The notes below the pieces were generated by a model. The model worked only from the letters and a program-made list of their open reading frames with translations, was not told where the DNA came from and made no database searches. A DNA stretch of 64,000 nt, taken from NCBI RefSeq assembly GCF_900107965.1, contig NZ_FNVU01000017.1, positions 62,001-126,000 of the forward strand, read 5' to 3'. Origin of the DNA: Actinacidiphila yanglinensis. Lineage in GTDB: Bacteria; Actinomycetota; Actinomycetes; Streptomycetales; Streptomycetaceae. Shown piece after piece: positions 8,621-57,874 of this stretch (within the stretch, counting starts at the first letter, position 1; each line of letters starts with the position of its first letter). The position numbers were made by a program, and so were the translations under genes.

Positions 8621-9064
8621 TCACGCGTCCTCGCGCTCGGCGGCGACGGCGGCCGCCTCCGCCGCCTCGGCGTGGGCCGCGCCCTTGCCCCGGGTGGCCA
8701 CGGCGTCCGCGGGCAGCTCGATCTCCGGGCAGTCCTTCCACAGCCGCTCCAGCGCGTAGAAGACCCGCTCCTCGGAGTGCTGGACGTGCACCACGATGTC
8801 GACGTAGTCCAGCAGCACCCAGCGGCCGTCCCGCTCGCCCTCCCGCCGCACCGGCTTGGTGTCCAGCTCCTGGAGCAGGTGTTCCTCGATTGCGTCGACG
8901 ATCGCCTTGACCTGCCGGTCGTTGGGCGCCGAGGCGACCAGGAAGGCGTCGGTGATGGAGAGCACATCGCTGACGTCGTAGGCGATGATGTCGTGCGCGA
9001 GCTTGTCGGCGGCCGCCTGTGCGGCGGCGCGGGTCAGCTCAAGGGAACGGTCAGTGGCGGTCAC
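8621..9064 (-). CDS. rsfS: Ribosome silencing factor RsfS (Iojap family)
   Basis: A 147-residue RsfS. The family binds ribosomal protein L14 and blocks joining of the 50S and 30S subunits when nutrients run low. The conserved core runs from DIIAYDVSDVLSITDAFLVASAPNDRQV through WVLLDYVDIVVHVQHSEERVFYALERLW. The C-terminal tail is Ala/Glu-rich and variable. The GTG at 9064 is preferred over a GTG 30 bases upstream because GGAAAG lies 8 bases ahead of it and the product then begins VTATDRS, the usual streptomycete N-terminus. It is followed closely by the phosphatase gene and preceded by the LCP gene, both on the same strand. Confidence 0.96.
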   Translation of the reverse strand: MTATDRSLELTRAAAQAAADKLAHDIIAYDVSDVLSITDAFLVASAPNDRQVKAIVDAIEEHLLQELDTKPVRREGERDGRWVLLDYVDIVVHVQHSEERVFYALERLWKDCPEIELPADAVATRGKGAAHAEAAEAAAVAAEREDA

Positions 9065-9177
9065 GGATGCGGCTTTCCGGTCGGGGACTGTCACCTCAAG
9101 GGTCTCACGACCCTCGGACAGACCCCGACCGGAAATCGGGCGGCGCCGCTGACCTGCGGCGCCGCCCGGTTCGCCGG

Positions 9178-11070
9178 TCAGTCGCCGGAGGTGCTCGGCT
9201 TGTAGTCCTTGCCGAGCACGACCGAGATGTCCGCGTTGGACGGGACCGTGCCCTTCTTCACCGCGCTCGTCGGCAGGCCCAGCGTGGCCGCCACGTCCTT
9301 GGCCGCCGCCGCCCGGGCCGGGTCGGTGTAGAGCACCTGGGACACCGCCTGGGTCGTGGTGGACTTGCCGCCCGCCACGTAGGTGTAGGTGCCGCCGTTG
9401 ACGATCGCGGCCTGCGCCATGGTCGCGGACTTGGAGTTGCCGCTGGCGTCCTTGACCGAGACCCTGGCCGCCGCGGAGGAGCCGGTGCTCTGCTTCACGC
9501 TGCCGCCGAGCACGTCCTTCACGATGCTGTCGGTGGCCTTCGTGTCGAGCGTCCCGTCCTTCTGCACCGGCAGCATGGTGGTGGAGTACTGGCCGGTCTT
9601 GGCGAGGTCGGCGAGTTCGGCGAGCGAGGCCCCGAGCTGCTTCTCGGTGAGCGACGGGTCGAGGATCTGGGCGAGCGCCTGCACGGTCTTGGTCGCGTCC
9701 GGCGCGTCGCTCGGCATCTTCTTCAGCACGGCCTGCATGACCTGGCCGAAGCGGGCGAGCTGGTCGGTCTGCGACTCGCCGGGCCCCTTGTAGGTGGCGT
9801 AGGTCACGGCGGCCTGACCGTTCAGGTCCTGCTGCTCGCCCTTGGGGACGAGCACCTTGTCCTTGTCCTTGCCGGTGCCCTTGATCTCGGTGTTCGTGTC
9901 GACGAAGACGTCGCCGAGGGAGTCGACCAGCAGCTCCAGGTACGGGGAGTCGAGCCGCCAGCTGCCCTTGATGTCGGTGCCGAGCAGGGTGTTGAGGGAG
10001 TCCCGGGTGGGCCCGACGCCGTTCGCGACCGACTTGTCCAGGGTGGTCGCGGAGCCGTCGTCGTCGGTGAGCTGCACGCTCCCCGGTATGAGCACGGTGG
10101 TGCCGTGCTTCTTCGTCGTGTTGTCCACCAGCAGCGCGGTGGAGCTGGCGCCGCCGTTGACGGGCAGCATGTGCACCACGATCACGTCGCGCCGCTGGTC
10201 GCCCCCGGTCGCGGCCGCCGCCGTGGAGTTCTTCTTCAGGCCGGGGATCTTGCCCGCCTGCCAGAGGTAGCCGGCGCCGCCGAGCAGCGCGAGCACGAGT
10301 ATGACCACCAGCCCGGACGTGCGTTTGCGTCCGCGCCGCTTGGCCTCCTCCCTGCGCTCGGTGCGCGACTCGGAGAACTTCAGCCAGTCGATGACCTCTT
10401 CGGACTCCTCCGACTCCTCGTCGACGAAGGCGAACTGATCGGTCCCGTCGTCCCGCGCCGTCTGCTGCTCGGCCGCCGGGGGCTGCTCGCCCTGGTACAC
10501 GGGCTGCTGGCCGGTCTCGTACGCCGGCTGCTGCCCGGTGTCGTACGCGGGCATCTGCCCGGTCTGGTACGCCGCCTGCTGGCCGGTGTCGTACGTCGGG
10601 ATCTGGCCGGTCTCGTACGTCGGGATCTGGCCGGTCTCGTACGTCGGAATCTGGCCGGTCTCGTACGTCGGGATCTGGCCGGTCTCGTACGTCGGAATCT
10701 GGCCGGTCTCGTACGTCGGGATCTGGCCGGTCCGGTACACGGGCTGCTGGCCGGTCCCGTAGTCCTGCTGGTAGCCCTGCGGGGGGTGGACCGGGTGCTG
10801 GCCGGTGTCGAACTGCTCGTAGTACGGCGGCGCGGCCTGCTGGGGGATGTCGTAGCCCTGCGGCCGGCCGCCGCCGTAGGTCGACGACGGGTCCTGGTAC
10901 GGCGGTTGGGCGTAACCCTGCTGCGGTGGCGCGGGCGGCGGCGGCACCGGGCGGCCGTACTCGTCGTAGTCGTAGCGCTGCTGCTGGTAGTAGGGGTCCT
11001 GCGGGTAAGGGTCTCTCTCGTTGTCCTGACCGCCCTCGGCATAGTGCCTGCGGGGGTTTGCGTCGTTCAC
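9178..11070 (-). CDS. LytR-CpsA-Psr (LCP) family protein with octapeptide repeat tail and degenerate active site
   Basis: A 630-residue membrane protein. Residues 1-105 are rich in Pro, Gln, Tyr and Gly. Residues 106-193 are 11 tandem octapeptides of the TGQIPTYE type, followed by an acidic stretch (about 215-230) and a basic one (238-251). One membrane segment spans about 253-270. The outside part holds an LCP domain (about 290-480) and a LytR_C domain (about 530-625). LCP enzymes attach glycopolymers to peptidoglycan. Here the usual IPRD is IPGS and the second arginine cluster (YxRxR...R..RQ) reads TYATYKGPG...LARFGQ, so catalytic Arg residues appear lost. It sits between nadD and rsfS; in Streptomyces an LCP protein from this locus (PdtA) affects sporulation, and orthology is inferred from synteny. 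Confidence 0.88.
   Translation of the reverse strand: MNDANPRRHYAEGGQDNERDPYPQDPYYQQQRYDYDEYGRPVPPPPAPPQQGYAQPPYQDPSSTYGGGRPQGYDIPQQAAPPYYEQFDTGQHPVHPPQGYQQDYGTGQQPVYRTGQIPTYETGQIPTYETGQIPTYETGQIPTYETGQIPTYETGQIPTYDTGQQAAYQTGQMPAYDTGQQPAYETGQQPVYQGEQPPAAEQQTARDDGTDQFAFVDEESEESEEVIDWLKFSESRTERREEAKRRGRKRTSGLVVILVLALLGGAGYLWQAGKIPGLKKNSTAAAATGGDQRRDVIVVHMLPVNGGASSTALLVDNTTKKHGTTVLIPGSVQLTDDDGSATTLDKSVANGVGPTRDSLNTLLGTDIKGSWRLDSPYLELLVDSLGDVFVDTNTEIKGTGKDKDKVLVPKGEQQDLNGQAAVTYATYKGPGESQTDQLARFGQVMQAVLKKMPSDAPDATKTVQALAQILDPSLTEKQLGASLAELADLAKTGQYSTTMLPVQKDGTLDTKATDSIVKDVLGGSVKQSTGSSAAARVSVKDASGNSKSATMAQAAIVNGGTYTYVAGGKSTTTQAVSQVLYTDPARAAAAKDVAATLGLPTSAVKKGTVPSNADISVVLGKDYKPSTSGD
10492..10755 (-). 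repeat. In-frame 24-bp tandem repeats in the LCP gene
   Basis: Eleven consecutive 24-base units encode octapeptides of the consensus TGQ(I/Q)P(T/A)Y(E/D). Six central units are TGQIPTY followed by E or D and are nearly identical at the DNA level (alternating GTCGGGATCTGGCCGGT and GTCGGAATCTGGCCGGT on the plus strand), which suggests recent slippage or unequal exchange. The frame is preserved. The Tyr/Gln/Gly-rich cytoplasmic tail is probably disordered. Confidence 0.9.
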
Positions 11071-11100: not shown

Positions 11101-11700
11101 CTACCCGGTCTCGTGCCGGTAGAGCGCGCGCTTGTCGATGTAGCGCACCACACCGTCCGGAACCAAGTACCAGACCGGATCCCCCTTGGCCACCCGCTGG
11201 CGGCAGTCGGTGGACGAGATCGCCAGCGCCGGGACCTCCACCAGCGACACACCGCCTTCGGGGAGCCCCGGGTCCGACAGCGTATGCCCTGGACGTGTCA
11301 CGCCGATGAAGTGCGCGAGCGCGAAGAGTTCCTCGGCGTGCCGCCAGGACAGGATCTGCGAGAGCGCGTCGGCCCCGGTGATGAAGAACAGCTCAGCATC
11401 GGGATGCTCGGCCCGCAAGTCCCGCAGGGTGTCGATGGTGTAGGTCAGGCCCCCGCGGTCGATGTCGCTGCGGCTCACCGAGAACTGCGGGTTGGACGCG
11501 GTGGCGATCACCGTCATCAGGTAGCGGTCCTCGGCGGCCGAGACCTTGCGGTCTTCCTTCTGCCAGGGCTGACCGGTGGGCACGAAGACGACCTCGTCGA
11601 GGTGGAAGAGGCTCACCACCTCGCTCGCGGCCACCAGGTGCCCGTGGTGGATGGGGTCGAAGGTACCGCCCATCACACCGATGCGCTTCTTCTCTGACAT
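11101..11700 (-). CDS. nadD: Nicotinate-nucleotide adenylyltransferase
   Basis: A 199-residue NadD, which transfers AMP from ATP to nicotinate mononucleotide in the last shared step before NAD synthetase. The nucleotidyltransferase motif is [16 protein letters not shown], containing Hx[17 protein letters not shown] carries the ISSTxxR signature that binds the phosphates, and LIxxDxL is present as [13 protein letters not shown]. The ATG at 11700 gives the standard N-terminus [12 protein letters not shown]; upstream alternatives lack family similarity. It is followed 30 bases later by the LCP gene and preceded by a 47-residue membrane protein gene. Confidence 0.97.
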
Positions 11701-11708
11701 ACGGACCG

Positions 11709-11852
11709 TTAGTCCCGGTTGAAGCGGGTGACGACCCACAGCAGGAGCAGCAGGGCACCCAGCGCGCCGAAACCGGTCAGGTACGGGCTCAGGCTGGGGT
11801 GGTTGCCGCCCTCGGCGAGAGTGGTCAGGGTGGTGACTGCGGGGCTCGACAT
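11709..11852 (-). CDS. Small single-pass membrane protein (47 aa)
   Basis: A 47-residue reading frame starting [19 protein letters not shown], with one membrane helix at about 22-42 ([19 protein letters not shown]) and a short basic end RFNRD. AAAGGG lies about 8 bases before the ATG. It precedes nadD by 8 bases, so it is probably in the same transcript. The hydrophobic pattern, ribosome site and tight spacing support a real gene. The function is unknown; comparable micro-membrane proteins occupy this place in other streptomycetes, to my recollection. Confidence 0.7.
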
Positions 11853-11987: not shown

Positions 11988-13136
11988 GTGTCCGAATCGT
12001 CCCAGTCGAAGAAACCGAAGAAGGACGGGCCCGGCGGAAAGGGCTCGGCAGGGAAGGGTTCGGGCGGTGGTTCGGGCGAGAAACTGCCCAGCCGCACCCG
12101 TCGCCGCTTCCCCGACATCTCGTCGCGGGCGTACGAACACCCGGCCGACAAGTCGGCGCTGGTGGCGCTGCGGAAGCTGACCGGATTCGACACCGTCTTC
12201 AAGGCGTTGAGCGGCCTGGTGCCGGAGCGCAGCCTGCGGCTGCTGTTCCTGTCCGACTCGGTGCGGGTCAGCGACGAGCAGTTCCCCCACCTCAACGCGA
12301 TGCTGCGGGACGCCTGTTACATCCTGGACCTGGAGAAGATCCCGGCGTTCTACGTCTCCCAGGACCCGCAGCCGAACGCGATGTGCATCGGCATGGACGA
12401 GCCGATCATCGTGGTCACCACCGGTCTGGTGGAGCTGCTGGACGAGGAGGAGATGCGCGCGGTCGTCGGCCACGAGGTGGGCCACGCGCTGTCCGGCCAC
12501 TCCGTCTACCGGACGATACTGCTGTTCCTGACCAACCTGGCGCTGCGGGTGGCCTGGATCCCGCTGGGGAACCTCGCGGTGCTGGCCATCGTCACCGCGC
12601 TGCGCGAGTGGTTCCGCAAGTCCGAACTCTCCGCGGACCGGGCCGGCCTGCTGGTCGGCCAGGACCTCCAGGCGTCGATGCGCGGCCTGATGAAGCTGGC
12701 CGGCGGCAACCACCTGCACGAGATGAACGTCGACGCATTCCTCAAGCAGGCCGACGAGTACGAAGCCGCCGGCGACCTGCGCGACTCCGTCCTGAAGATC
12801 CTCAACGTGCTGCCGCGCAGCCACCCCTTCGCCGCCGTGCGCGCGGGCGAGCTGCGCAAGTGGGCGGCCAGCCGCGACTACCAGCGGCTGATGGACGGCC
12901 ACTACCCGCGGCGCACCGAGGACAAGGACGCGTCCGTCTACGACTCCTTCAAGGAGTCGGCCAACCACTACGCCGATCGGGCCAAGCAGAGCAAGGACCC
13001 GCTGGTCGGTCTGATCCGCGACTTCGGCAACGGCGCAGGGGACATCGGCGGCAAGTTGCGCGACAAGTTCACCGGTTCAGGAGCGAAGGGCGACCCGGGT
13101 CCGGACACGTCGGGCGCCACGCCCGAGGGCGCGTAG
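11988..13136 (+). CDS. M48 family zinc metalloprotease, membrane associated
   Basis: A 382-residue protein. The first 45 residues are a basic, Ser/Gly/Lys-rich tail. The catalytic motif is VVGHEVGHALSGH (HExxH at about residue 165), with the third zinc ligand Glu in SELSADRAGLL. Hydrophobic stretches between them (about 175-215, LLFLTNLALRVAWIP and NLAVLAIVTALREW) are membrane segments, as in HtpX-like M48 enzymes. The GTG at 11988 follows AGGGGG, and longer starts lack support. It is the only plus-strand gene in this block and its last 169 bases overlap the 3' end of the opposing membrane-protein gene. Probable role: quality control of membrane proteins. Confidence 0.9.
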   Translation: MSESSQSKKPKKDGPGGKGSAGKGSGGGSGEKLPSRTRRRFPDISSRAYEHPADKSALVALRKLTGFDTVFKALSGLVPERSLRLLFLSDSVRVSDEQFPHLNAMLRDACYILDLEKIPAFYVSQDPQPNAMCIGMDEPIIVVTTGLVELLDEEEMRAVVGHEVGHALSGHSVYRTILLFLTNLALRVAWIPLGNLAVLAIVTALREWFRKSELSADRAGLLVGQDLQASMRGLMKLAGGNHLHEMNVDAFLKQADEYEAAGDLRDSVLKILNVLPRSHPFAAVRAGELRKWAASRDYQRLMDGHYPRRTEDKDASVYDSFKESANHYADRAKQSKDPLVGLIRDFGNGAGDIGGKLRDKFTGSGAKGDPGPDTSGATPEGA

Positions 13137-14368
13137 CGGACGTCGACCGCGGTCCGCGCGAGCGGGATCGCGGCCGGCGCACTGGACGCTGCGGACGCAG
13201 AAGAGGCGATGGACGCGGTGGTCGTCGCAGCCGTGGTCCCGGGCGCGGCTGCGGTCGGGCCGGTGACGGTGGCGGCGGGCGCCGTGGCGCCGGCCGTCGC
13301 GCTGCCGGTCGGGCCGGCGCCGGCGGTGTCCAGGGTGGTGCAGACCGAGCCGGCCGTGCCGTCGGGGTGGTACGGGTCGGTGCCGTTGACGGCGCCGCCG
13401 CTGCCGCCGGCCAGTATCGGCCGGAAATAGCTGCCCACGCTGTCGGTGCAGCCCAGCGGTCCGGCCTGGACATCGGCGTCGACCAGCTCGATGTGGTGCT
13501 GCCGCAGGTCGGAGTGGTCGAAGTGGAAGGTCAGCTGGCGCCGCACCGTGAACAGCGACACCCCGGTGTTCGGAGTGCCGTGCAGGGCGTAGACGAAGGT
13601 GTAGTCGGAGACGATCTCCAGCGCGTTCCCGGCCGCGGCGGTCCGCACCTTCCCTTCGTTCACCCGGACCCCCTTGCCCGCGCCGACCAGGGCGATCCCC
13701 GCGGTCGGGTCGAAGCGCACCAGCCAGCCGGTGGCCGCGTGCCGGCCGTCGTCGCTGGGCTGCGAGAGGGTGTCGTCGAACTGGTCGAGCTGGCTCGGGC
13801 TCAGCAGGTCGCGTACCGGCTCCAGGTCGCCGTCGATCACCGTGCCGGGGTCGAGGGAGGTGTCAGTGAGGTACTCCTTGGCGGTGTCCAGCGCCTCCTG
13901 GACCTCGCTCTGCGCGTAGCCGCCGATCCGCCGGGCCGCGTCGCTCGGCAGGATGACGGTGCGCTGGTAGCCCTCCGCGCCGGTGCCGGCGAACGGCGTG
14001 CTCGCGGACACCTCGGGCACCGTGCCCTTCGGTACCAGCGGTATCAGGTTCACCCGGATCTGCTCGCTGACCGCGGGGGCGTGGGTGCGGTACGGGTGCC
14101 GCACCCCCATGTAGACCGCGAAGCCGAACGCGACCATGATCAGCAGGAACATCGCCAGTGCCTGGCGGGCGATGCCGCGCGGCATCGCGTGCCGGATGTG
14201 CACCGCGTGCGTCGCGTCGTCGAGCCGCTCCCGCGCGGAGTACTCCTGGATGCGGGCAGCCTTGACGAACGACTCGTCGAACACGACGGATCGGTACTCG
14301 TACTCGTCGTCTCCCCCGGCCGGTACGCCGTCGGGCGTGCCCTCGGGAGGGTCCTCGTGCCCGCTCAT
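12968..14368 (-). CDS. Single-pass membrane protein with conserved cytoplasmic SVVFDESFV motif
   Basis: A 466-residue protein not assigned to a characterised family. The cytoplasmic N-terminus carries YRSVVFDESFVKAARIQEYSA and ER. One membrane helix spans about 68-90 (ALAMFLLIMVAFGFAVYMG). The large outside domain (about 95-350) is well structured, with QRTVILPSDAARRIGG and TGWLVRFDPTAGIALVGAG. A Thr/Ala-rich low-complexity linker (about 350-415) precedes ARTAVDVRYAPSG, and the frame then reads on into the 3' end of the M48 gene. The last 45 residues may be a recent extension past an ancestral stop near RYAP. It shares its N-terminal motif with the next gene. The position beside LCP and mre genes suggests a wall-related role (inference). 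Confidence 0.75.
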   Translation of the reverse strand: MSGHEDPPEGTPDGVPAGGDDEYEYRSVVFDESFVKAARIQEYSARERLDDATHAVHIRHAMPRGIARQALAMFLLIMVAFGFAVYMGVRHPYRTHAPAVSEQIRVNLIPLVPKGTVPEVSASTPFAGTGAEGYQRTVILPSDAARRIGGYAQSEVQEALDTAKEYLTDTSLDPGTVIDGDLEPVRDLLSPSQLDQFDDTLSQPSDDGRHAATGWLVRFDPTAGIALVGAGKGVRVNEGKVRTAAAGNALEIVSDYTFVYALHGTPNTGVSLFTVRRQLTFHFDHSDLRQHHIELVDADVQAGPLGCTDSVGSYFRPILAGGSGGAVNGTDPYHPDGTAGSVCTTLDTAGAGPTGSATAGATAPAATVTGPTAAAPGTTAATTTASIASSASAASSAPAAIPLARTAVDVRYAPSGVAPDVSGPGSPFAPEPVNLSRNLPPMSPAPLPKSRIRPTSGSLLCLARSA

Positions 14369-14432: not shown

Positions 14433-14855
14433 TCAGGGCCGGGCCGAGAAGACCGGCGGCGAGACGGCCTGCGAGCCGATCGGCGGGTGGGTCGGCGGCG
14501 GGGTGGACGAGCGCCCGCTGCCGGCACCGCGATAGACCGCGGCGAAGGTCAGGGCGACCACGCCGATGCCCATCACCACCGCGAGCGCCCAGGCGACCGG
14601 CCGGTGCCAGCGGGTGCTGCTGCCGCGGTACGGGTGGCCGGCCGAGTACAGGTCGTCGGGTTCCAGGACGGACTCGGCGTCCGCCTCGGGTATGGCCGCG
14701 GCCCGGCTCGCGTGCCGTCCGGGGCGTCCGGGCGGCAGCGCAGGGCCCTCGGCGACGGCGAGCATCCGTTCCGTGGCCGTGGGCTCATGGAACAGGGCGG
14801 ACCGTACGAAATCTTCGTCGAGGACTACGGAGGCGAACTCGTCATCGTCCGGCAT
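14433..14855 (-). CDS. Small single-pass membrane protein, N-terminal paralogue of the downstream gene
   Basis: A 140-residue protein. Its start MPDDDEFASVVLDEDFVRS aligns with YRSVVFDESFVKA of the neighbouring 466-residue protein, and TATERML aligns with SARERLD. One membrane helix lies at about 88-110 (VAWALAVVMGIGVVALTFAA), followed by a short Pro/Ser-rich outside tail. The ATG at 14855 is chosen by that alignment; the ribosome site is weak and an upstream start at 14933 is possible. It precedes the 466-residue gene by 64 bases on the same strand, so the pair is probably co-expressed. No enzymatic motif is visible. Confidence 0.7.
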   Translation of the reverse strand: MPDDDEFASVVLDEDFVRSALFHEPTATERMLAVAEGPALPPGRPGRHASRAAAIPEADAESVLEPDDLYSAGHPYRGSSTRWHRPVAWALAVVMGIGVVALTFAAVYRGAGSGRSSTPPPTHPPIGSQAVSPPVFSARP

Positions 14856-14950
14856 CTGTTCAGGGTAATCCGGATGGGGCCCTTTTGGGCAGGGGATTCC
14901 TGGCCCACTGTGCGGAGACCGTGCGGCGGCCATCCGGCTGTGATAAGGCT

Positions 14951-18499: not shown

Positions 18500-19468
18500 T
18501 CATGCCGGGTGGTGCAGCCGCCAGCCCGCCCATGCCGAACCCACCATCTGCCGGACGTCGTACCGTGCCCGCCAGTCCAGCTCGCGGGTGATCGCCTCGG
18601 CCGAGGCGATGACGCGGGCCGGGTCGCCCGGGCGGCGCGGGCCGATCTCGGGCGTGAGGCCAGTGTGGCCGGTTTCCTCGGCGATCACCGCAACCATCTC
18701 GGCCACCGAGACGCCGCGGCCGGTGCCGATGTTCAGCACCAGGGACGCCTCCGGGTCGCGGGCCAGCCGGCGGGCGGCGGCGACGTGCGCGGACGCGATG
18801 TCCTCGACGTGGACGTAGTCCCGCACGCAGGTGCCGTCGGGGGTCGGGTAGTCGTCACCGAAGATCCGCGGCGGCAGGCCCTCGCCGAGCCGGCGGAAGA
18901 CCATGGGGACGATGTTCGAGACACCGGTGTCGGCGAGCTCGGGGGTGGCGGCGCCGGCCACGTTGAAGTAGCGCAGCGAGGCGGTGGCGAGGCCGTGCGC
19001 CCGGCCGGCCGCCGCGAGCAGCCACTCGCCGGCGAGCTTGGTCTCGCCGTAGGGGCTCATCGGGGCGCAGGGCAGGTCCTCCGTGACCAGGTCGGCGTCG
19101 GTGGGTCCGTAGACGGCCGCGGAGGAGGAGAAGACGATGCGGCGCACCCCGGCGCCGACGGCCGCGTCCAGGACGGTGCGCAGACCCTCGACGTTCTCCT
19201 GGTAGTAGTACAGCGGGCGTTCGACGGACTCGGCGACCTGCTTGCGGCCCGCGACGTGCACGATGCCGTCGACCGCGTACCGGCCCAGCACCCGGTCGAG
19301 CAGCGGGCGGTCGAGCACCGAGCCGCGCTCCAGCGGCACTCCGGCGGGCAGCCGGGCCGGATCGCCGGTGCTCAGGTCGTCCAGTACCACGGTGTCCTCA
19401 CCGGCGGCGGCCAGTGCCCGCACCACATGTGAGCCGATGTACCCCGCACCGCCAGTGATCAGCAACAT
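18500..19468 (-). CDS. galE: UDP-glucose 4-epimerase
   Basis: A 322-residue extended short-chain dehydrogenase. The NAD-binding motif is MLLITGGAGYIGSHVVRAL, followed by LDDLSTG, VHVAGRKQVAES and SSSAAVYG. The catalytic YxxxK is in SPYGETKLAGE, and LRYFNVAGA and DGTCVRDYVHVEDIA are the UDP-sugar contact regions. It interconverts UDP-glucose and UDP-galactose (or the N-acetyl forms). It begins at ATG 19468 and is divergent from the large glycosyltransferase at 19802. The position at the edge of the wall-polymer cluster suggests that it supplies a galactose-type donor. Confidence 0.93.
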   Translation of the reverse strand: MLLITGGAGYIGSHVVRALAAAGEDTVVLDDLSTGDPARLPAGVPLERGSVLDRPLLDRVLGRYAVDGIVHVAGRKQVAESVERPLYYYQENVEGLRTVLDAAVGAGVRRIVFSSSAAVYGPTDADLVTEDLPCAPMSPYGETKLAGEWLLAAAGRAHGLATASLRYFNVAGAATPELADTGVSNIVPMVFRRLGEGLPPRIFGDDYPTPDGTCVRDYVHVEDIASAHVAAARRLARDPEASLVLNIGTGRGVSVAEMVAVIAEETGHTGLTPEIGPRRPGDPARVIASAEAITRELDWRARYDVRQMVGSAWAGWRLHHPA

Positions 19469-19801
19469 CGGCCCACCCTAACAAGCGCCGGTCCGGTGCC
19501 GGACCGGCACTTGCGGGGTCCCTCGTCCGGGTGATTCGACTCAGGGCCGCCCGCCACGGCCGGCCGCGCCACCAGCGCCGTCGCCCGCCTGCCGGAGTCG
19601 CCACGCGGGACCCGCTCGCGACCCACACAACGGGCACAGGTCACCGTCCTAGACTCCGGGACCGTAGCCCCTCGATCCATTTTGCGGCGCTTGGGTGCTG
19701 TTTGGCCTGCCCTTGTGCCTGCGTGATGCGGCGGTCACCCCGGCGCCGCCGTGACGACAGCACGAAGAACCCGGACAGAACAGAAAGAGGCGTACTCCCG
19801 C
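19469..19801. other. 333-base divergent spacer between galE and the glycosyltransferase gene
   Basis: No credible gene. It should contain the promoters of galE and of the plus-strand glycosyltransferase/rmlC/methyltransferase run. A lower-GC patch around 19676-19700 (CATTTTGCGGCGCTTGGGTG) is the likeliest plus-strand promoter or leader region. AAAGAGG at about 19785-19791 is the probable ribosome site of the downstream gene, slightly far from the ATG. Confidence 0.4.
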
Positions 19802-21964
19802 ATGGCGGTCAAGGTCAGCGTCATCGTCCCGGTCTACAACCCGGGCAAGTACATCGAGCCGTGCCTGGCCTCGCTGCTGGGCCAGACGCTGCCCGCCGAG
19901 GAGTGGGAGCTGCTCCTCGTCGACGACGGCTCGACCGACGACACCCCCGCGATGCTCGACGCGCTGGCCGCCGAGCACTCCCACGTACGGGTGATTCACA
20001 TCCCCAACTCCGGCTGGCCGGGCAAGCCCCGCAACATCGGCGTCACCGAGGCCCGCGGGGAGTACGTGCAGTTCGTCGACCAGGACGACCACATGGGCGA
20101 GGACGCGCTGCGCCGGCTGTACGAACTCGGCCACCGCAACGGCTCGGACGTGGTGATCGGCAAGGTCGCCAGCAACTTCCGCGGGGTCCCGCACGGCGTC
20201 TTCCGGCTCAACCGGGACACGTGCACGATCCACGACGCCCCGCTGTACGACAGCCTCACCCCGCACAAGATGTTCCGCACCGCCTTCCTGCGCGACAACG
20301 GGATCAAGTACCCCGAGGGCAAGCGGCGGTTGGAGGACCAGCTCTACATGATGCAGGCGTACTTCGCCGCGCGGGCGGTCTCCATCCTCGGCGACTACAC
20401 CTGCTACCACTACAGCAAGCGCGACGACGGCAAGAACGCCGGCTCGGCGCGGATCGTGCCCGCGCAGTACTACGACAACCTTCGCGAGGTCCTCGACGTG
20501 GTGATGGCCAACACCGAGCCCGGCGAGTTCCGGGACCGGGTGCTGCGCCGCTTCTACCGGGTGGAGATGCTCGGCCGGCTCAGCGAGCCGTCGGTGCTGA
20601 CGTACGAGCCCGACTACCTGGACCAGATGGTGGTGGCCGTGCACGGCCTGGCCAAGGGCTACATGGGCGACGGCGTGCACGACGGGCTCGGCGCGCTGCC
20701 GCGGATCCGCTCCACGATGCTGCGCCGCGAGGACACCGCCGCGCTGCTGGAGACCGCCCGCCGCGCCTCGGCGGTCAAGGGCCACGCCCGGCTGGAGGAC
20801 TTCCGCTGGGTGAACGGCCGCGCCGCGATCACCGTCACCGCCCGGCTGCGCCACGAGGACGGGCGGCCGGTCACCCTGCTGCGCCGGGACGGCCGCTACT
20901 TCCTGCACCCCGATTTCCACCAGGGCCTCCTGGACGACGGGGAGGAGGCGGACGTCACCGGCGAGATGGACGCCTTCCGCGCGGAGGTGCAACTGCGCAA
21001 CCGGGAGACCGCGGTGGAGTGGTCCTGCCCGGCGGAGTTCGAGATGCACGTCGAGGACGTCAGCGACACCGAGGACAACGACGACAACGACGACGTCGCG
21101 GCCGCCGCGGACACCCCGGACACCCCGGACACCCCGGGCGCCTCGGACGGCCAGGACGACAGGACCGCCCGCCCCGCCGGAACCCGTTGCCACGTGGTGA
21201 TAAAGGGTGTCGCCTACCTCGACCCGAAGAAGGTCAGGACGCGTCCGGCGCTGACCCGCGGGATGTGGGACGTGTGGGTGCCGGTACGCGGTCTCGGCCT
21301 GGTCCGCAAGGCCCGGCTCGGCGCCGACCGCTCCCCCTCGGTCGACGGCCACTGCCTGCCGGCGCTGCTGGGCACACCCGCCCGGATCGCCGTGCCGTAC
21401 TTCACCAACCCGCACGGCAACCTCACCCTCGACGTCGACCGGCGCGGCAAGAAGCTCGGTGTCGCCCTGGCCGGCCGCCAGGTGCTGCGGATGCCGGGCA
21501 CGCACCGTCTGGAGGTCGAGCTGAGCGCGATCACCCACCCGGGCACCGCGCCGGCCGACGCGACGCTCCGGCTGCGGGCGGAGAGCGGCGGTGACGTCGC
21601 CGCCGAGCTGCCCGCCACGCTGCTGCCGGTGGGCGGCCGGGTGCACCTGCGGGCCGACGGACGGCTGGACGCCGCGGCGCAGGCCACGGTGGGTGCGGGC
21701 ACCTGGACGCTGTCGGCCTGCCTGGACGGCGCCAAGGCCCCCGAGCTGGAGATCGGGCCGGTGCAGGTGGACCGGCACGGGCGGATCCGGCTGTCGGACG
21801 GCCTCGCCGTGGTGGCACCGTCAACCGCGCGTGACGCGCGCCGGCAGCGCCGCAGGGCCGCCTTGCGGGCGGTGCTGCGGCAGGTCGGTGGGCCGCTGGT
21901 ACGGCGGATGGGACCGGCCGGACGCAAGCGGGCCCGGCGGTGGGCGGGGAAGCTGGGGGCGTAG
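19802..21964 (+). CDS. Family 2 glycosyltransferase, TarS/TarP-like, for wall polymer
   Basis: A 720-residue enzyme. The GT-A fold domain occupies about 1-230: VSVIVPVYNPGKYIEPCLAS, LLLVDDGSTDDTP, RNIGVTEARGEYVQFVDQDD with the metal-binding DxD, then MFRTAFL and RLEDQLYMM with the probable catalytic acid/base. The remaining ~490 residues contain beta-rich segments, an acidic low-complexity linker (about 420-450, with DTP repeats) and a basic C-terminus. The arrangement is like poly(ribitol phosphate) glycosyltransferases of the TarS/TarP type, but this is similarity of layout. ATG 19802 (MAVKVSVIVP) is preferred over a GTG 51 bases upstream. RmlC and a methyltransferase follow on the same strand. 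Confidence 0.85.
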   Translation: MAVKVSVIVPVYNPGKYIEPCLASLLGQTLPAEEWELLLVDDGSTDDTPAMLDALAAEHSHVRVIHIPNSGWPGKPRNIGVTEARGEYVQFVDQDDHMGEDALRRLYELGHRNGSDVVIGKVASNFRGVPHGVFRLNRDTCTIHDAPLYDSLTPHKMFRTAFLRDNGIKYPEGKRRLEDQLYMMQAYFAARAVSILGDYTCYHYSKRDDGKNAGSARIVPAQYYDNLREVLDVVMANTEPGEFRDRVLRRFYRVEMLGRLSEPSVLTYEPDYLDQMVVAVHGLAKGYMGDGVHDGLGALPRIRSTMLRREDTAALLETARRASAVKGHARLEDFRWVNGRAAITVTARLRHEDGRPVTLLRRDGRYFLHPDFHQGLLDDGEEADVTGEMDAFRAEVQLRNRETAVEWSCPAEFEMHVEDVSDTEDNDDNDDVAAAADTPDTPDTPGASDGQDDRTARPAGTRCHVVIKGVAYLDPKKVRTRPALTRGMWDVWVPVRGLGLVRKARLGADRSPSVDGHCLPALLGTPARIAVPYFTNPHGNLTLDVDRRGKKLGVALAGRQVLRMPGTHRLEVELSAITHPGTAPADATLRLRAESGGDVAAELPATLLPVGGRVHLRADGRLDAAAQATVGAGTWTLSACLDGAKAPELEIGPVQVDRHGRIRLSDGLAVVAPSTARDARRQRRRAALRAVLRQVGGPLVRRMGPAGRKRARRWAGKLGA

Positions 21965-22133
21965 CACCGGCCGGACGCGCGGTAGCCTCTCGAAGAGTGG
22001 CATCCAGGAGAATTCCCGCTGTCACGGCGGAGTCGAACGGATGACACCCGATCGGGTCCGACCGGGGCCGCACGTCCGCCCCCCGGCTCGGCCCGGCCCG
22101 TCAGCGGCAGAGCGAGCGAAGGAAACGACACCC

Positions 22134-22736
22134 ATGCGGCCACTGGACATCGAAGGCGCCTTCGTGCACGAACCGAAGGTCTTCCCCGACGACCGGGGCA
22201 GCTTCCACGAGTGGTTCAAGGCCGGGGACTTCCAGGAGTCCCTCGGCCACCGGCTCGACCTGGCGCAGGCGAACTGCTCGGTCTCCCGTCGCGGCACCCT
22301 GCGCGGCGTGCACTTCGCGGACGTGCCGCCCAGCCAGGCGAAATACGTCAAGTGCGTGCGCGGCGCGGTCCTCGACGTGATCGTCGACATCCGGGTCGGC
22401 TCGCCGACGTTCGGCCGCTGGGAGGCGGTCCGGCTCGACGACGAGCAGCACCACGCGGTGTACCTGTCGGAGGGCCTGGGCCACGCCTTCATGGCGCTCA
22501 CCGACGACGCGACCGTCGTCTACCTCTGCTCGACCGGGTACGCGCCCGGCCGCGAGCACGGCATCAACCCGCTCGACCCGGAGCTGGGCATCGCCTGGCC
22601 CGAGGACGTCGAGCCGCTGCTGTCGGAGAAGGACGCCCAGGCGCCCGGCCTCGCCGAGGCACGCGCGCAGGGTCTGCTGCCCGCCTACGAGGACTGCAGG
22701 CGCTTCGCGGCGGAACTTCGTGCCCGAAGCGTGTGA
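22134..22736 (+). CDS. rmlC: dTDP-4-dehydrorhamnose 3,5-epimerase
   Basis: A 200-residue cupin-fold RmlC, which epimerises dTDP-4-keto-6-deoxyglucose at C3 and C5. Visible features are FPDDRGSFHEWF, the catalytic His in GTLRGVHFADVPPSQAKYVK, GAVLDVIVDIRVGSPTFG and EGLGHAFMALTDDATVVYL, with the active-site Tyr nearby, then INPLDPELGIAWP. AAGGAAA lies 8-10 bases before the ATG. It completes the rhamnose pathway together with rmlABD, which are encoded 6-9 kb away on the other strand, an unusual split. A methyltransferase gene follows 100 bases downstream. Confidence 0.95.
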   Translation: MRPLDIEGAFVHEPKVFPDDRGSFHEWFKAGDFQESLGHRLDLAQANCSVSRRGTLRGVHFADVPPSQAKYVKCVRGAVLDVIVDIRVGSPTFGRWEAVRLDDEQHHAVYLSEGLGHAFMALTDDATVVYLCSTGYAPGREHGINPLDPELGIAWPEDVEPLLSEKDAQAPGLAEARAQGLLPAYEDCRRFAAELRARSV

Positions 22737-22836
22737 GGTTCAGACAAACTTCCGCTGAACGATGTCCGTACGGCCATGCAAGCGCTAGCGTCGCTCCATC
22801 ACTTTCCCGCCATCTTTCACAGCGAAGGGTTATTCA

Positions 22837-23625
22837 GTGCACCGTCACGAGTTCCTGCGCAGGCTGCACAAGGTCTACAAGCCGCGCAACTACCTGGAGA
22901 TCGGCGTCAACGACGGAAAGAGCCTGGCACTGTCCCGGGTGCCGTCCGTCGCCATCGACCCGGCCTTCAAGGTCACCCAGTCGATCAGCTGCGACGTGCA
23001 CCTCGTGCGGGACACCAGCGACGCGTTCTTCGGCCGCAAGGACCCGCTGCTGCACCTGCGCCCGGGCCGCAACCCGTTCCGTGCGCTGGGCCGCCGGGAC
23101 CCGCTCGCCCTGGTCGGCGACCCGAGCCTCGAGCTCGCCTTCATCGACGGCATGCACCTCTTCGAGTTCGCGCTGCGTGACTTCATGAACGTGGAGAAGC
23201 ACTCCCGCTGGTCCAGCGTGATCGTCTTCGACGACATGCTGCCGCGGAACGTCGACGAGGCCGCCCGCAACCGCCACACCGGCGACTGGGCCGGCGACGT
23301 CTACAAGGTCGCCCAGGTGCTGCGCCGCTACCGCCCCGACCTGACGGTCGTCGACGTGGACACCGTGAAGACCGGTGTCACCGCGATCTTCGGCGCCGAC
23401 CCGACCAACACGGTGCTGCAGGACAACTACGACAAGATCCTCGAGGAGTTCGTCACCGAGGACCCGCAGGACATCCCGCAGGAGATCCTGGTCCGCAAGA
23501 ACGCGGTCAACGCCGAGACCCTGCTGCGCGCCCCTTTCTGGCCGTCGCTGGTCCGCGCCCGCAACCTGCACCGCGGCCGCTCCTCGTTCGGCTCGATCCG
23601 CCGGCAGATCGAGGCCGTGAGCTGA
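22837..23625 (+). CDS. Class I SAM-dependent methyltransferase (Methyltransf_24-like)
   Basis: A 262-residue protein. The SAM-binding motif I is NYLEIGVNDGKSLALS, followed by SVAIDP (motif II acidic residue). LAFIDGMHLFEFALRDFMNV and SVIVFDDMLPRN form the GMH...DD pattern of methyltransferases acting on sugars and related cluster products. GAAGGG precedes the GTG start by about 9 bases. It is the last gene of the plus-strand run and its stop is two bases from that of the opposing membrane protein. A likely job is O-methylation of a sugar in the wall polymer (inference); the substrate cannot be read from sequence. Confidence 0.82.
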   Translation: MHRHEFLRRLHKVYKPRNYLEIGVNDGKSLALSRVPSVAIDPAFKVTQSISCDVHLVRDTSDAFFGRKDPLLHLRPGRNPFRALGRRDPLALVGDPSLELAFIDGMHLFEFALRDFMNVEKHSRWSSVIVFDDMLPRNVDEAARNRHTGDWAGDVYKVAQVLRRYRPDLTVVDVDTVKTGVTAIFGADPTNTVLQDNYDKILEEFVTEDPQDIPQEILVRKNAVNAETLLRAPFWPSLVRARNLHRGRSSFGSIRRQIEAVS

Positions 23626-23627
23626 GC

Positions 23628-25253
23628 TCACGCCCCACGTCCCGTCACCGGCGCCGCGTCCTGGTCGCCCTCAGCGGGCGGCCGGGCCGCGGCCCCAGGG
23701 GTGTGCGACGCGCGCCACGGGCGCCGGGGCGGCCCGCCGCGACCACCGAGCAGCGCCAGTACGGGCACGGTGAGCATCCCCAGGAAGAGCGAGGCGCACA
23801 TGTAGCGCCACAGCGGTGAGGGGTTGGCCGCCAGGACCGTGAGCTGGAGCGCGAGCGGCAGCACCGCGAGGGCGAGCAGCTCGTACCGGCGGCGGCGCAA
23901 CGCGACCAGTGCCACCACCAGGTAGCCGAGGTAGGTCCAGTTCACCCCGCGCCACAGGAAGGGCGCGCGGTGCGGGGTCTGCGTCCAGTTGAAGGCCCTG
24001 GCCGCGGCGTGGTGGAGCTTGTACGACAGCGGGTTGTCGGGCAGCGAGGAGTGGTACGGCAGCTCCTTGACCGAGGACAGGCCGAACCCGCTCCAGCGGG
24101 TCACCACCGACGTGTTGGACGGTGCGTACTTGCCGGTGTGGCCGGTGAAGGCCCAGGCGATGTCGGCGCGGCACAGCCTCGCGCCGATGATGAGCCCCGG
24201 ATGGTGCTCCAGGATGCGCGCCCACAGCGCGAGCAGCTTCCCGTTCTCCTGGCCGGCCTTGATCCGGTTCATCGGCTTGCGCATGATCGGGTCCGCGACG
24301 TGGCAGTTGCCGCCCGGGCCGCGCCAGTGCGACAGCGGCGCGATGCCTTCGAGCAGCTTCAGGTCGGAGGCGGTGAAGATGCCTGGCTGCTTGGAGTAGG
24401 CCACCCCGATGTCGGCGTAGTTGAAGGCGTAGACCTCGTCGGGGCGGGGCTTCTGGACGCCGAGCGCCGGGTAGAGCACGTTGTTCATCAGCAGGGTCAC
24501 CACCAGCGGCACCGCGACCGCGGCGGCCATCCAGCGGCGCATGCCCGGCAGCAGCGCCACCAGCAGCACTCCGGCGGCGATGAGGACCGGGAAGCCGTTG
24601 TTGCGGAACAGCCCGATGCCCAGGCAGCCCGCGGCCAGCACCAGCATCTCGCGCCGGAACGCCCGGCCGTGGTCGCCCTGGTCGCCGCGCAGCCGGCGCG
24701 CGGTGAGCTGCATGACCGCGCCGAACGCGACGATCGCGGAGATGGTGAAGGCGACGTCCTTCCAGACGTACACCGTGAACGAGCCGGTCATCGACGCCGC
24801 GGCCACCACCACGACCGCGAGCAGGCCCCAGCGCCCGCGCACGCCCAGGTCCCGCAGCGCCACGCTCACGTACGCCAGCGCAGCGGCCATCGCGATGGTC
24901 TGCGCGAACGTCAGGGCCGCGATGCCGCCGGTGAGTTGGAGCGAGATCCACAGCAGCGCGTCGTAGGCCACGGAGTGGTCCGAGCGCCAGTGGGAGGTGC
25001 TGACCTCGTAGAGGTAGGTGAGGCTGTCGCCCGAGATCAGGCCGGGGCGGAAGGCGGCCCACCAGCCGAACAGCAGCACCTGGCAGGCCGCGTACGCCGC
25101 GAGCGGCAGCCGCCAGTGGACGGGCAGCCGGGACGGCGACCAGCGGCGCGCCGCGGGCGGGGCGCCGCCGGCGCCGGCCGGCTGGGGTGCGGGCGGGCCG
25201 GACGGCAGCCCTTCGAAGGGGTGCGGCTCGGGTGGCTGCGACGCCTCGCTCAC
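23628..25253 (-). CDS. Polytopic membrane protein, GT-C-like (DUF6020-like)
   Basis: A 541-residue protein with a 45-residue Pro-rich cytoplasmic start and about 11-12 membrane helices. The first outside loop contains ISGDSLTYLYEVSTSHWRSD, with acidic residues placed as in lipid-dependent GT-C glycosyltransferases, and a large loop lies at about 270-390 (VYAFNYADIGVAYSKQPG, LCRADIAWAFTGHTGKYA). The GTG start overlaps the stop of the preceding glycosyltransferase (GTGA). It is the last gene of the minus-strand cluster. The likely role is transfer of a sugar from polyprenyl phosphate to the polymer outside the membrane, as the third partner of a GT2/DUF2304 system. The family assignment is by architecture only. 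Confidence 0.7.
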   Translation of the reverse strand: MSEASQPPEPHPFEGLPSGPPAPQPAGAGGAPPAARRWSPSRLPVHWRLPLAAYAACQVLLFGWWAAFRPGLISGDSLTYLYEVSTSHWRSDHSVAYDALLWISLQLTGGIAALTFAQTIAMAAALAYVSVALRDLGVRGRWGLLAVVVVAAASMTGSFTVYVWKDVAFTISAIVAFGAVMQLTARRLRGDQGDHGRAFRREMLVLAAGCLGIGLFRNNGFPVLIAAGVLLVALLPGMRRWMAAAVAVPLVVTLLMNNVLYPALGVQKPRPDEVYAFNYADIGVAYSKQPGIFTASDLKLLEGIAPLSHWRGPGGNCHVADPIMRKPMNRIKAGQENGKLLALWARILEHHPGLIIGARLCRADIAWAFTGHTGKYAPSNTSVVTRWSGFGLSSVKELPYHSSLPDNPLSYKLHHAAARAFNWTQTPHRAPFLWRGVNWTYLGYLVVALVALRRRRYELLALAVLPLALQLTVLAANPSPLWRYMCASLFLGMLTVPVLALLGGRGGPPRRPWRASHTPGAAARPPAEGDQDAAPVTGRGA

Positions 25254-26182
25254 CGGCCCACCACCGGGTCGGCCGGCCGGGCCGGGCGTGGCACCCGGGC
25301 GAAGGCGTGCCCGGCCAGCTCGCGGGCGGTGCCGAGCCGGCGGTGGCGCAGCGCGCCCGGCACCATCAGCAGCGCGTGCAGCCGGGTGGACAGGTGGCGG
25401 CGGGCCGTCCGGGCGGCACGGTGCCACCCGAGCGCGTCGAAGTCGGCGGCGAGCTCGATCAGCAGCCGGCGGGTCTCCTCGAACCGGGAGCCGCTGACGG
25501 CCTGCGCCGAGGACTCGCTGGCCCGGTGCCGCCGGTAGTCGAAGCAGACGGCCGGGTCGGTGACCAGTTCCTCGCCCCGCAGCAGGAGTTCCACGGTCAT
25601 CGCGAGGTCCTGCACGACCGTGAGGTCGGTGCGGAAGCCGACCTCCTTGAGCACGTCGGAGCGCCAGCACATGGCCGGGAAGTAGAGCCAGTTGCCGCGC
25701 AGCAGGCTGACCGCGAGCGCTTCGCCGCGCATCCGGGCGCGCCGGTCGGGAGCCGCCGAGTACAGCCGTCGCTTGGCGGTGTCGACCAGGGTCCGCACCG
25801 GGCGGCCCTCGCCGTCGATGACCCGGACACCCGGCTGGTACATCGCGGCGCCCGGCATCTCGGCGCGGGCCGCGCGGACCGTGGCGACGTAGCCGGGGCG
25901 CATCAGGTCGTCGCAGCCCATCATCACCGTGTAGGGGAAGTCCACGAGTTCGGTGCAGCGGCGGAAGTTGCCGGTGACGCCGAGGTTGCGCGGGTTGCGG
26001 AAGTAGCGCACCCGGGGGTCGCCGAGGCCGGCGAACCACTCGGGCACGCCGGGTCTGGTGTCGTCGTCCACGACGGTGAGCCGCCAGTCGGGGTCGGTCT
26101 GCGCGAGGACGCTGCGCACCGCGTCGCGCATCAGCGCGGGGTCTCCGTAGTAGGGAAGCATGATGTCGAGCGTGTCGGTCAC
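25250..26182 (-). CDS. Family 2 glycosyltransferase
   Basis: A 310-residue cytosolic GT-A enzyme. DIMLPYYGDPALMRDAVRSV opens the fold, WRLTVVDDDTRPG binds the nucleotide, and NPRNLGVTGNFRRCTE precedes the metal-binding MMGCDDLMRPG (DxD variant CDD). LKEVGFRTDLTVVQDLAMTV carries the ED-like acceptor motif as QD. The C-terminus (about 240-310) is Arg-rich, consistent with membrane association. The GTG start overlaps the DUF2304 stop and its own stop overlaps the next start, both as GTGA. Acceptor and donor are unknown; a rhamnosyl- or galactosyltransferase for the wall polymer is plausible from context. Confidence 0.88.
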   Translation of the reverse strand: MTDTLDIMLPYYGDPALMRDAVRSVLAQTDPDWRLTVVDDDTRPGVPEWFAGLGDPRVRYFRNPRNLGVTGNFRRCTELVDFPYTVMMGCDDLMRPGYVATVRAARAEMPGAAMYQPGVRVIDGEGRPVRTLVDTAKRRLYSAAPDRRARMRGEALAVSLLRGNWLYFPAMCWRSDVLKEVGFRTDLTVVQDLAMTVELLLRGEELVTDPAVCFDYRRHRASESSAQAVSGSRFEETRRLLIELAADFDALGWHRAARTARRHLSTRLHALLMVPGALRHRRLGTARELAGHAFARVPRPARPADPVVGR

Positions 26183-26553
26183 TGGGAGCGTTCGCCTTCC
26201 ACGGCGGCCAGCGGCCGCTCGGGCTCGGGGCGGTGGGCCGTGCGCAGGGCGGCGTCGCGGGCCAGTTCGGTCAGCCGGCGCTCCATGGCACGGAAGCGCA
26301 GGTAGGTGTTGAGCGCGAGAGCGGTCACGCCGACCACCAGGAGGTAGAGCACCAGGTCGGTGCCGCGCCCCACGCCGAGGAGGTGGGCGGCCCTGGTGGT
26401 GTCGCCGGGCCGCAGGACGGCATAGGCGTTGACGAAGCAGAAGCCGAGGAAGGCGATCCGCTTCCACGCCCGGGTCCTGGTGGTGTTCCAACTCCGCATG
26501 AACACGGCGAGCAGCACCACGACGGCGGAGATCAGGATGAACTGGATGAGCAC
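26179..26553 (-). CDS. DUF2304 family small membrane protein
   Basis: A 124-residue protein with three membrane helices at about 2-19 (IQFILISAVVVLLAVFM), 33-50 and 66-86 (LVLYLLVVGVTALALNTYL), separated by the basic loop RSWNTTRTRAWKR. The last 35 residues are soluble and coiled-coil-like (RFRAMERRLTELARDAALR). This matches DUF2304, a family encoded beside dolichol-phosphate-mannose-synthase-like glycosyltransferases. The GTG start lies 3 bases after the stop of such an enzyme. It may help present or flip the polyprenyl-phosphate sugar, as GtrA-like proteins do (inference). Confidence 0.85.
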   Translation of the reverse strand: MLIQFILISAVVVLLAVFMRSWNTTRTRAWKRIAFLGFCFVNAYAVLRPGDTTRAAHLLGVGRGTDLVLYLLVVGVTALALNTYLRFRAMERRLTELARDAALRTAHRPEPERPLAAVEGERSQ

Positions 26554-26556
26554 CGG

Positions 26557-27285
26557 TCAGCCCTTCTCGCGGTTCATGGACAGGTCGAAGAGGATGTTCA
26601 CGCCGTTCATCAACGACTGACCCTTGGCCCGCGAGTAGTCGGTGTAGCGGATCGACACCGGGGACTCGATGACCCTCAGGTCGGAGCGCGCCAGGAAACC
26701 GGTGATCTCCGAGGCGTGCGCCATGCCGTTCATGGTGATGTTCACCCGCGCGGCGGCTGCCCGGTTGAACAGCCGCAGCCCGTTGTGCGCGTCGGACAGT
26801 CTGAGCCGGCGTGCGGTGGGGCTCAGCGCGGCCGCGGTGCGCAGCACCAGGCGCTTGGTCCAGGGCACGTCGAGGCGTTCGCCGCCCGGACGCAGGAAGC
26901 GGGAGCCGAGCACCACGTCGGCGTTGCGGGCCCGGGCGACCGCCAGCATGGTGACGACGTCCTCCACCCGGTGCTGGCCGTCGGCGTCGAAGGTGACGAA
27001 CCGTTCGGCGCCGGGCTGGCTCAGCGCGTAGCGCAGCCCGGTCTGGATCGCCGCGCCCTGGCCGAGGTTGACGGGGTGCCGGACCAGGTGGGCGCGGGTG
27101 CTCGCGACCGACTCGGCGGAGCCGTCCCGGCTGCCGTCGTCGACGCACACCACGTTGGGAAAGGTGCGCAGTGCCTCGGTCACCACACCGGCGACCACGG
27201 GTGCTTCGTTGTAGACCGGGATGATCAGCCAGACGTCGCTGAAGCTGCGGTTCCTGGCCAGGTACGGCGCGCCCGAGTTCACCAT
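26557..27285 (-). CDS. Polyprenyl-phosphate glycosyltransferase (DPM1/GtrB-like GT2)
   Basis: A 242-residue GT2 enzyme, expected to move a sugar from a nucleotide donor to polyprenyl phosphate. VWLIIPVYNEAPVVAGVV, VVCVDDGSRDGSAE, NLGQGAAIQTGLRYAL and RFVTFDADGQHRVEDV (DxD) are classical, followed by VLGSRFL and DAHNGLRLFNRAAA. It has no C-terminal membrane helices; the DUF2304 protein next door may supply the membrane anchor. The ATG at 27285 is preferred because GAAAGG lies about 12 bases upstream; a GTG at 27297 touches that site directly and is unlikely. Confidence 0.9.
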   Translation of the reverse strand: MVNSGAPYLARNRSFSDVWLIIPVYNEAPVVAGVVTEALRTFPNVVCVDDGSRDGSAESVASTRAHLVRHPVNLGQGAAIQTGLRYALSQPGAERFVTFDADGQHRVEDVVTMLAVARARNADVVLGSRFLRPGGERLDVPWTKRLVLRTAAALSPTARRLRLSDAHNGLRLFNRAAAARVNITMNGMAHASEITGFLARSDLRVIESPVSIRYTDYSRAKGQSLMNGVNILFDLSMNREKG

Positions 27286-27308
27286 GGGGTAGCGCACCCT
27301 TTCGTCAG

Positions 27309-31858: not shown

Positions 31859-31941
31859 GTTACGTGTCCCATGCAGATGGATTCAGGGGGCGGTCACTGC
31901 GGGCCGCGACCCGCGCCCCCGGCTTGGAGCATACCCGGGCT

Positions 31942-34104: not shown

Positions 34105-34220
34105 GGGGTGACTGCTCCAGTGCGATGTCGAGTGAGACGTCGAATGTGAATGCGAGGGGCGGAGAGTCCTCGCCGGGAGGGGCCGGTCGCCGGGCGCCGG
34201 GGTCCCTCCACAACGGACGA

Positions 34221-34258
34221 AGTCCCTGGGCGCACCGTGTCACGCGGGCCCAAGGACT
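34221..34258 (-). terminator. Hairpin after the IspD-SDR gene
   Basis: AGTCCTTGGGC pairs with GCCCAGGGACT on the minus strand (11 bp with one U-G, 16-nt loop), starting 21 bases past the stop. It may end or attenuate transcription before the TagF-like gene. Confidence 0.55.
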
Positions 34259-34279
34259 GTCGATCCGATCGTGCCACGG

Positions 34280-57870: not shown

Positions 57871-57874
57871 GGGC

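Follow-up and report, generated by a model that had tools for sequence, protein, structure and literature searches.

The LCP-LytR_C protein encoded between nadD and rsfS in the window (the whole 64,000-nucleotide stretch of DNA that was analysed) is a member of the LCP fold family and, going by its place and domain layout, the orthologue of Streptomyces PdtA, but, judged by sequence alignment, it does not have the residues that define a catalytic LCP ligase. In the alignments, two of the three catalytic arginines, R267 and R362 in the numbering of Cps2A, are absent throughout the sampled syntenic family, and the third, R374, is kept in part of it. The absence of key residues here and in the sampled relatives makes a helper more likely than the enzyme after which the protein is named. 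In the literature, attachment of PDP to the spore wall of Streptomyces is credited to PdtA; should its family be without a catalytic site, another protein must be the transferase.

Domain layout and structural model

The first-pass annotation gave the protein the span 9178-10210, which does cover the part outside the membrane, but the whole gene is longer, occupying 9178-11070 of the minus strand and encoding 630 residues. The features discussed here are as follows.

8621-9094, minus strand: rsfS, downstream neighbour on the same strand (Pfam RsfS)
9178-11070, minus strand: gene for the PdtA orthologue, 630 aa with LCP and LytR_C domains, GTG start codon (ORF, Pfam)
9202-9468, minus strand: LytR_C domain, aa 535-623 (Pfam PF13399 and model matches)
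9502-10200, minus strand: LCP-fold domain, aa 291-523 (residues 31-263 of model m9bd6875eb4a8 aligned with LCP structures)
9742-9801, minus strand: YATYKGPGESQTDQLARFGQ, aa 424-443, where YxRxR...DxxRxxRQ is expected (alignment)
10078-10089, minus strand: IPGS, aa 328-331, where IPRD is expected, with G330 at the R267 position (alignment)
10261-10314, minus strand: membrane helix, aa 253-270 (most hydrophobic stretch)
10327-10434, minus strand: juxtamembrane motif FAFVDEESEESEEVIDWLKFSESRTERREEAKRRGR, aa 213-248 (pattern search across loci)
10405-11070, minus strand: N-terminal tail, aa 1-222, rich in Tyr, Gln and Pro, predicted to be cytosolic (sequence)
10507-10761, minus strand: 10.6 tandem copies of a 24-bp unit that encodes TGQIPTYE-like octapeptides
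11101-11739, minus strand: nadD, upstream neighbour on the same strand (Pfam CTP_transf_like; also the neighbour in distant loci)

Gaps of 30 bp and 83 bp separate the pdtA orthologue from the listed ORFs of nadD, upstream, and rsfS, downstream. The LCP plus LytR_C layout is intact, as had been proposed, in that both domains score above their Pfam cut-offs (LCP, PF03816, 31.8 bits with a cut-off of 24.6; LytR_C, 34.8 bits with a cut-off of 22.2). It should be noted that the PF03816 score is far below those of the other 11 LCPs in the same genome (115-170 bits), and that the score with NCBIfam TIGR00350, 23.5 bits, is under the cut-off of 62.3. The tail of PdtA orthologues differs in length and repeats among species; the octapeptide TGQIPTYE occurs by pattern in 11 copies in the window protein, and at least four copies of this type are found by pattern in 19 of 33 loci of the genus as against 4 of 110 others.

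An AlphaFold2 model of the window protein, made with 44 of 80 named relatives in the alignment, has a mean pLDDT of 79.9 and a pTM of 0.66. With VIA-align, its residues ∼31-263 align with TagT carrying WTA precursors (6mps, Z 21.2, rmsd 2.7 over 217 residues; 6mpt, Z 20.8) and with Cps2A (3tep, Z 20.3), and the part from residue 273 onward matches 6q10, an Rv2700 orthologue (Z 8.4), and 2m5y, Rv0431 (Z 7.3); Foldseek agrees with these matches. The structure prediction that the first-pass annotation had proposed as a check gives an intact LCP fold, as far as a predicted model can indicate. A phmmer search of the PDB with the single window protein found no LCP, whereas a search with the family profile did.

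Catalytic positions in the window protein and in Streptomycetaceae

Alignment with ordinary LCPs places L302, S310, G330, T426, Q434, Q437, and F441 of the window protein at the positions of Cps2A D234, D246, R267, R362, D371, R374, and Q378, respectively, with K428 at the R364 position and R440 at the R377 position. The two sets of residues expected in a catalytic LCP ligase, the Arg triad (R267, R362, and R374) and the Mg-ligand aspartates (D234 and D246), are therefore both replaced, the former by G330, T426, and Q437 and the latter by L302 and S310. The claim that the catalytic arginines are lost is thereby upheld: IPGS is present where it had been described, TYATYKGPGE begins at aa 423 and LARFGQ at aa 438, and there is no Arg at the three positions. 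Other arginines at the same positions would speak against such a loss; in the sequence alignment, the only means by which this was checked, none aligns there, and none appears to take the place of the triad.

The Cps2A numbers were assigned to the motifs GxD, RSD, IPRD, YxRxR, and DxxRxxRQ by spacing, and the assignment is a probable one; the second Arg of YxRxR is presumably R219 of TagT. The available part of PMC7831098, which is the source of the Cps2A residue numbers and of the roles of R267, R362, and R374 as three pyrophosphate-binding arginines, links TagT R219 with catalysis and reports that conserved Arg and Asp residues matter in Corynebacterium glutamicum LcpA and that A. oris LcpA cannot do without R149 and R266.

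Ordinary LCPs keep these residues. Among the other 11 LCPs of the same genome, R267 is present in 10 and R362 and R374 in all 11. In a set of 42, composed of these 11 and of 31 picked by their score with an ordinary-LCP profile and so partly circular as a control, R267 is present in 41; R362, D371, R374, Q378, and D246 in all 42; and D234 in 38, the position being uncovered in the remaining 4. The R377 position is variable in this set (R in 25 of 42). One ordinary LCP from a cluster of the same genome (L011 / L286, G000:C9:90957-91439) has Pro at R267 and Lys at R364 but keeps R362, D371, R374, and Q378, which may be an alignment error.

None of 143 Streptomycetaceae orthologues (the 63 best-scoring loci and the best 80 of 478 relatives, a set weighted toward close relatives, with some genomes entered in two copies) has Arg at R267, R362, or R374. 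The residues found instead are N (140) or G (3) at R267, T (140), I (2), or D (1) at R362, and Q (142) or E (1) at R374, and the Q378 position is occupied by F (142) or Y (1). D234 is kept in none of the orthologues and D246 in 12. The R377 position, R440 here, is Arg in all 143, and the R364 position is basic in 119 (R in 109 and K in 10). Together with the window protein, the set contains 136 distinct sequences, for which the median column identity is 0.83 in the LCP domain and 0.62 in LytR_C. The residues that stand in for R267, R362, R374, and Q378 (N, T, Q, and F, respectively) are each present in 97-99% of these sequences, placing their columns in the 71st-81st percentile of the LCP domain, whereas conservation is lower in the columns of D234, R364, and D371 (21st-44th percentile). 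The basic residues R294, R356, R372, and R440 are conserved.

Because the replacement residues are nearly fixed and the LCP domain exceeds LytR_C in conservation, we read the pattern as selection on a changed site and not as decay. The basic residue that 119 of 143 orthologues have at R364 argues, however, against a fully dead site.

Two other explanations of the missing arginines were rejected. An error of sequencing or annotation does not fit 143 related loci, all of which are without Arg at each of the three positions. A displacement of Arg by one residue, as in the IPSR of some relatives outside the order, does not apply, since the position in question is S, A, T, N, D, or G in the 143 Streptomycetaceae loci.

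The family across Actinomycetota

A strong match to the window protein is present in all 34 genomes of the genus, its own included, and a match in 196 of 197 genomes of the order; the sole miss (G058) is a draft of ∼980 contigs that is 90% complete. Drift is rejected on these counts together with the conserved LCP domain. For loci outside the order, rsfS was used as an anchor that is independent of the protein. A relative lies beside rsfS in 23 of 58 loci of other families in the class (L090-L147), representing 18 of 32 families, and in 27 of 56 loci of other classes (L230-L285). No relative was detected in the other 35 and 29 loci, respectively, in many of which nadD adjoins rsfS. The contig of L133 ends before nadD is reached, the search of L248 gave no nadD, and the relative in L254 is 2.5 kb from rsfS. 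Scores with the family profile are weak in L240 (18 bits), L283 (22), L247 (24), and L278 (36); the ordinary LCPs of the window's own genome reach 22-65 bits with this profile but at least 197 with the ordinary-LCP profile, with which the weak relatives score 27 or nothing.

In an alignment of 57 family rows, from which eight similar rows of one family (L079, L081-L084, L086-L088) were left out, 51 have a letter in the R267 column and none of these is Arg. In the 43 rows used for a tree, R267 and R362 are present in none, R374 in 14, D234 in 2, and D246 in 5, and the R364 position is R or K in 7. Of the 33 ordinary LCPs aligned with them, 32 have R267, and the 29 that extend over R362 and R374 all keep both. 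The first-pass annotation had treated the arginine loss as an oddity of one protein and had suggested aligning all orthologues at the locus; that alignment extends the loss and removes the oddity, as neither R267 nor R362 occurs in any of the 143 Streptomycetaceae or of the 43 rows of the phylum, a rule for every sampled member of the syntenic family. A PF03816 search of 27 genomes gave 18 hits at the rsfS locus with 22-70 bits, the other hits having at least 74 except for one 26-bit split fragment; all 18 genomes with a low-scoring hit at this locus also hold at least one ordinary LCP.

In a tree of 76 LCP domains, 43 of the 57 family members and 33 of the 42 ordinary LCPs, the two groups lie on the two sides of one branch (100/100), and the same split is obtained when the motif columns are removed (SH-aLRT 99, quick search). 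The family rows left out of the tree were divergent, incomplete, or interrupted by the end of a contig (L103, L104, L133, L135, L144, L234, L235, L240, L242, L247, L262, L276, L278, and L283). It should be recognized that the tree is unrooted and flagged for long branches and odd composition, and that what it supports is one split and not an order of states. Among the matches listed in a search of the open-access literature, there was no paper on a phylum-wide family of LCPs without these arginines.

In the relatives of L234, L242, and L262, the LCP domain is reduced to its first half but LytR_C is retained, and SIPKD, SIPDK, and SIPPE occur among them where SIPRD is expected. In L233, L234, and L242, nadD and the relative are separated by a gene for an HD-domain, YqeK-like protein. 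By eye, there seems to be a second LytR_C repeat in L231, L233, and L251. In L091, L140, and L141, one long ORF lies between nadD and rsfS in each case, with no LCP or LytR_C match in Pfam; L281 has a further LCP-like ORF that scores 17.2 bits, below the Pfam cut-off, and an ORF in L282 has no match.

The juxtamembrane motif has a narrower distribution. The sequence FxFx[DE]...VIDWLxFxE[SNT]R immediately precedes the membrane helix of the window protein, and a relaxed form of this pattern is found at the expected site of the same ORF in all 143 Streptomycetaceae loci, a stricter form being found in 105. The 12 other loci of the order all have WLxF, and 5 of them have the full pattern, so that WLxF occurs in 155 of 155 loci of the order. 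Both WLxF and the full pattern are absent from the 42 ordinary LCPs, the 23 relatives in the class, and the 27 relatives in the phylum, and a search of the genome for a second copy of the motif gave a next-best match of only E 3.07. Since WLxF is present in all loci of the order and absent from the sampled relatives elsewhere, it is an addition of the Streptomycetales; that it serves in docking is a guess.

PdtA as scaffold, transferase, or receptor

By their nadD-side position and LCP-LytR_C layout, PdtA of Streptomyces coelicolor (SCO2578) and Vnz_11555 of Streptomyces venezuelae are orthologues of the window gene, and the available text of PMC11481543 describes Vnz_11555 as a PdtA orthologue and an LCP-LytR_C protein. 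PdtA is described in PMC7831098, as far as that source was available, as the PDP transferase, found in a screen of the spore-wall complex; the link with sporulation that had been suggested for the gene beside rsfS and nadD fits this identity. The primary paper on PdtA is Sigle 2016, as cited in PMC11985553; PdtA is not named in the available part of PMC6767563. The name of PdtA and the papers that cite it imply an active PDP transferase; against this speak the sequences of the family.

The window protein has its LCP fold and membrane anchor in common with TagT/TagU/TagV, Cps2A, Staphylococcus aureus LcpA, and CglA, and with CglA also the LytR_C domain, but differs from all of these in the replacement of the Arg triad, the Mg-ligand aspartates, D371, and Q378. 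In having LytR_C without a working LCP site it resembles VirR (Rv0431) and Cei (Rv2700), but these have no LCP domain, whereas PdtA keeps a conserved, seemingly dead one and has a long N-terminal tail. The available part of PMC11832169 reports that VirR, which has LytR_C only, contacts truncated LCP proteins through this domain and proposes it as a scaffold; split-GFP signal was obtained with the truncated LCPs only and not with full-length ones. In Firmicutes, the order nadD-yqeK-lytR-rsfS (PMC7549365, in part) puts a yqeK-linked lytR in the same slot before rsfS as the PdtA family, and L233, L234, and L242, with their YqeK-like gene, show this order.

The VirR precedent and the anatomy of the protein lead us to favor, on balance, the reading that it is an old non-catalytic LCP that acts as a scaffold for active LCP ligases. 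The first-pass annotation had offered a scaffold in the spore-wall complex as a possibility, and as a possibility it fits, the role being drawn from VirR and from anatomy. With the Arg triad, the Mg-ligand aspartates, D371, and Q378 replaced, the protein would not carry out LCP phosphotransfer but would act as a membrane adaptor, and its loss would lower glycopolymer attachment indirectly. A fuller version of this proposal, which we put forward tentatively and would sooner doubt than assert, is that an ancient, vertically inherited LCP pseudoenzyme resides in the nadD-rsfS cluster of Actinomycetota and that PdtA, instead of being the PDP transferase, works as a transmembrane adaptor, with WLxF inside and a dead LCP domain plus LytR_C outside, that couples the wall-synthesis complex to the true LCP ligases. 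If this is correct, the phylum would have a class of LCP pseudoenzymes with ready tests in single residues, the WLxF motif, and LytR_C, and the poorly understood LytR_C domain could be studied apart from catalysis.

Genetic evidence stands against the scaffold reading. According to the available part of PMC7831098, mutation of pdtA in S. coelicolor lowers the glycopolymer of the spore wall by 48% with only PDP affected, and the 10 other LCP homologues of this species have no severe phenotype and could not replace PdtA; these observations fit a dedicated transferase. The protein could then be an active PDP transferase with a rebuilt site, in which the basic residue at aa 428, the invariant R440, and other conserved basic residues (R294, R356, and R372) would hold the pyrophosphate. 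The basic residue that 119 of 143 orthologues keep where YxRxR has its second Arg suits such a site, and this residue, the retention of R374 in 14 of 43 rows, the IPSR of some relatives, and the loose conservation of the D234, R364, and D371 columns all count against a pseudo-ligase. We nevertheless regard an active transferase as unlikely, because R267, R362, R374, D371, and Q378 are replaced, D234 and D246 are kept in 0 and 12 of 143 orthologues, the two essential arginines of A. oris LcpA (PMC7831098, in part) set a precedent against it, a basic residue at R364 is rare in the wider family (7 of 43), and half of the LCP domain is lost in some relatives. Loss of activity in the S. venezuelae orthologue Vnz_11555 is, moreover, already suspected in print (PMC11481543, in the part available).

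A receptor function, in which the altered pocket would bind a polyprenyl lipid, a lipid-linked polymer, or a glycan without chemistry and would signal or hold it for a ligase, seems a slightly more doubtful alternative. The model fold matches entries of lipid-bound TagT and Cps2A, the replacement residues N, T, Q, and F are nearly fixed, and columns that are hydrophobic in ordinary LCPs remain so in 82% of family cells (66 columns) as compared with 31% in 169 other columns, although this measure does not separate pocket from core. In the window protein itself, just 48 of the 66 columns hold a hydrophobic residue, 7 columns are lost in the family, and the charges that bind pyrophosphate are gone. 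That the protein is a drifting remnant whose LCP domain has no function, as its low Pfam score and the lack of a detectable developmental effect of the S. venezuelae deletion (PMC11481543, in part) might suggest, is highly improbable in view of the matches in 196 of 197 genomes of the order and 34 of 34 of the genus and of an LCP domain more conserved than LytR_C. The same deletion result also counts against the scaffold that we favor.

The window also contains other genes related to the cell wall. A glycopolymer gene group at 18500-35803, between proB and obg, encodes an epimerase, a glycosyltransferase with a TarS linker, RmlD, GDP_Man_Dehyd/epimerase and nucleotidyl transferase proteins (RmlB- and RmlA-like), a Glyphos_transf match, and an IspD-SDR fusion. 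In Firmicutes the order of the corresponding cluster is obg-yhbY-proB-proA-nadD (PMC7549365, in part), and the glycopolymer group in the window lies within it. Elongasome genes for a RodA-type protein, a PBP, mreC, and mreB lie at 53607-60144 on the same strand as the pdtA orthologue. These two groups suit a role in a wall complex but prove nothing. Closer to pdtA, the gene at 12968-14368, which has no Pfam family at E 1e-5, and the gene at 14433-14933 have in common, by eye, an SVVxDExFV stretch near the N terminus.
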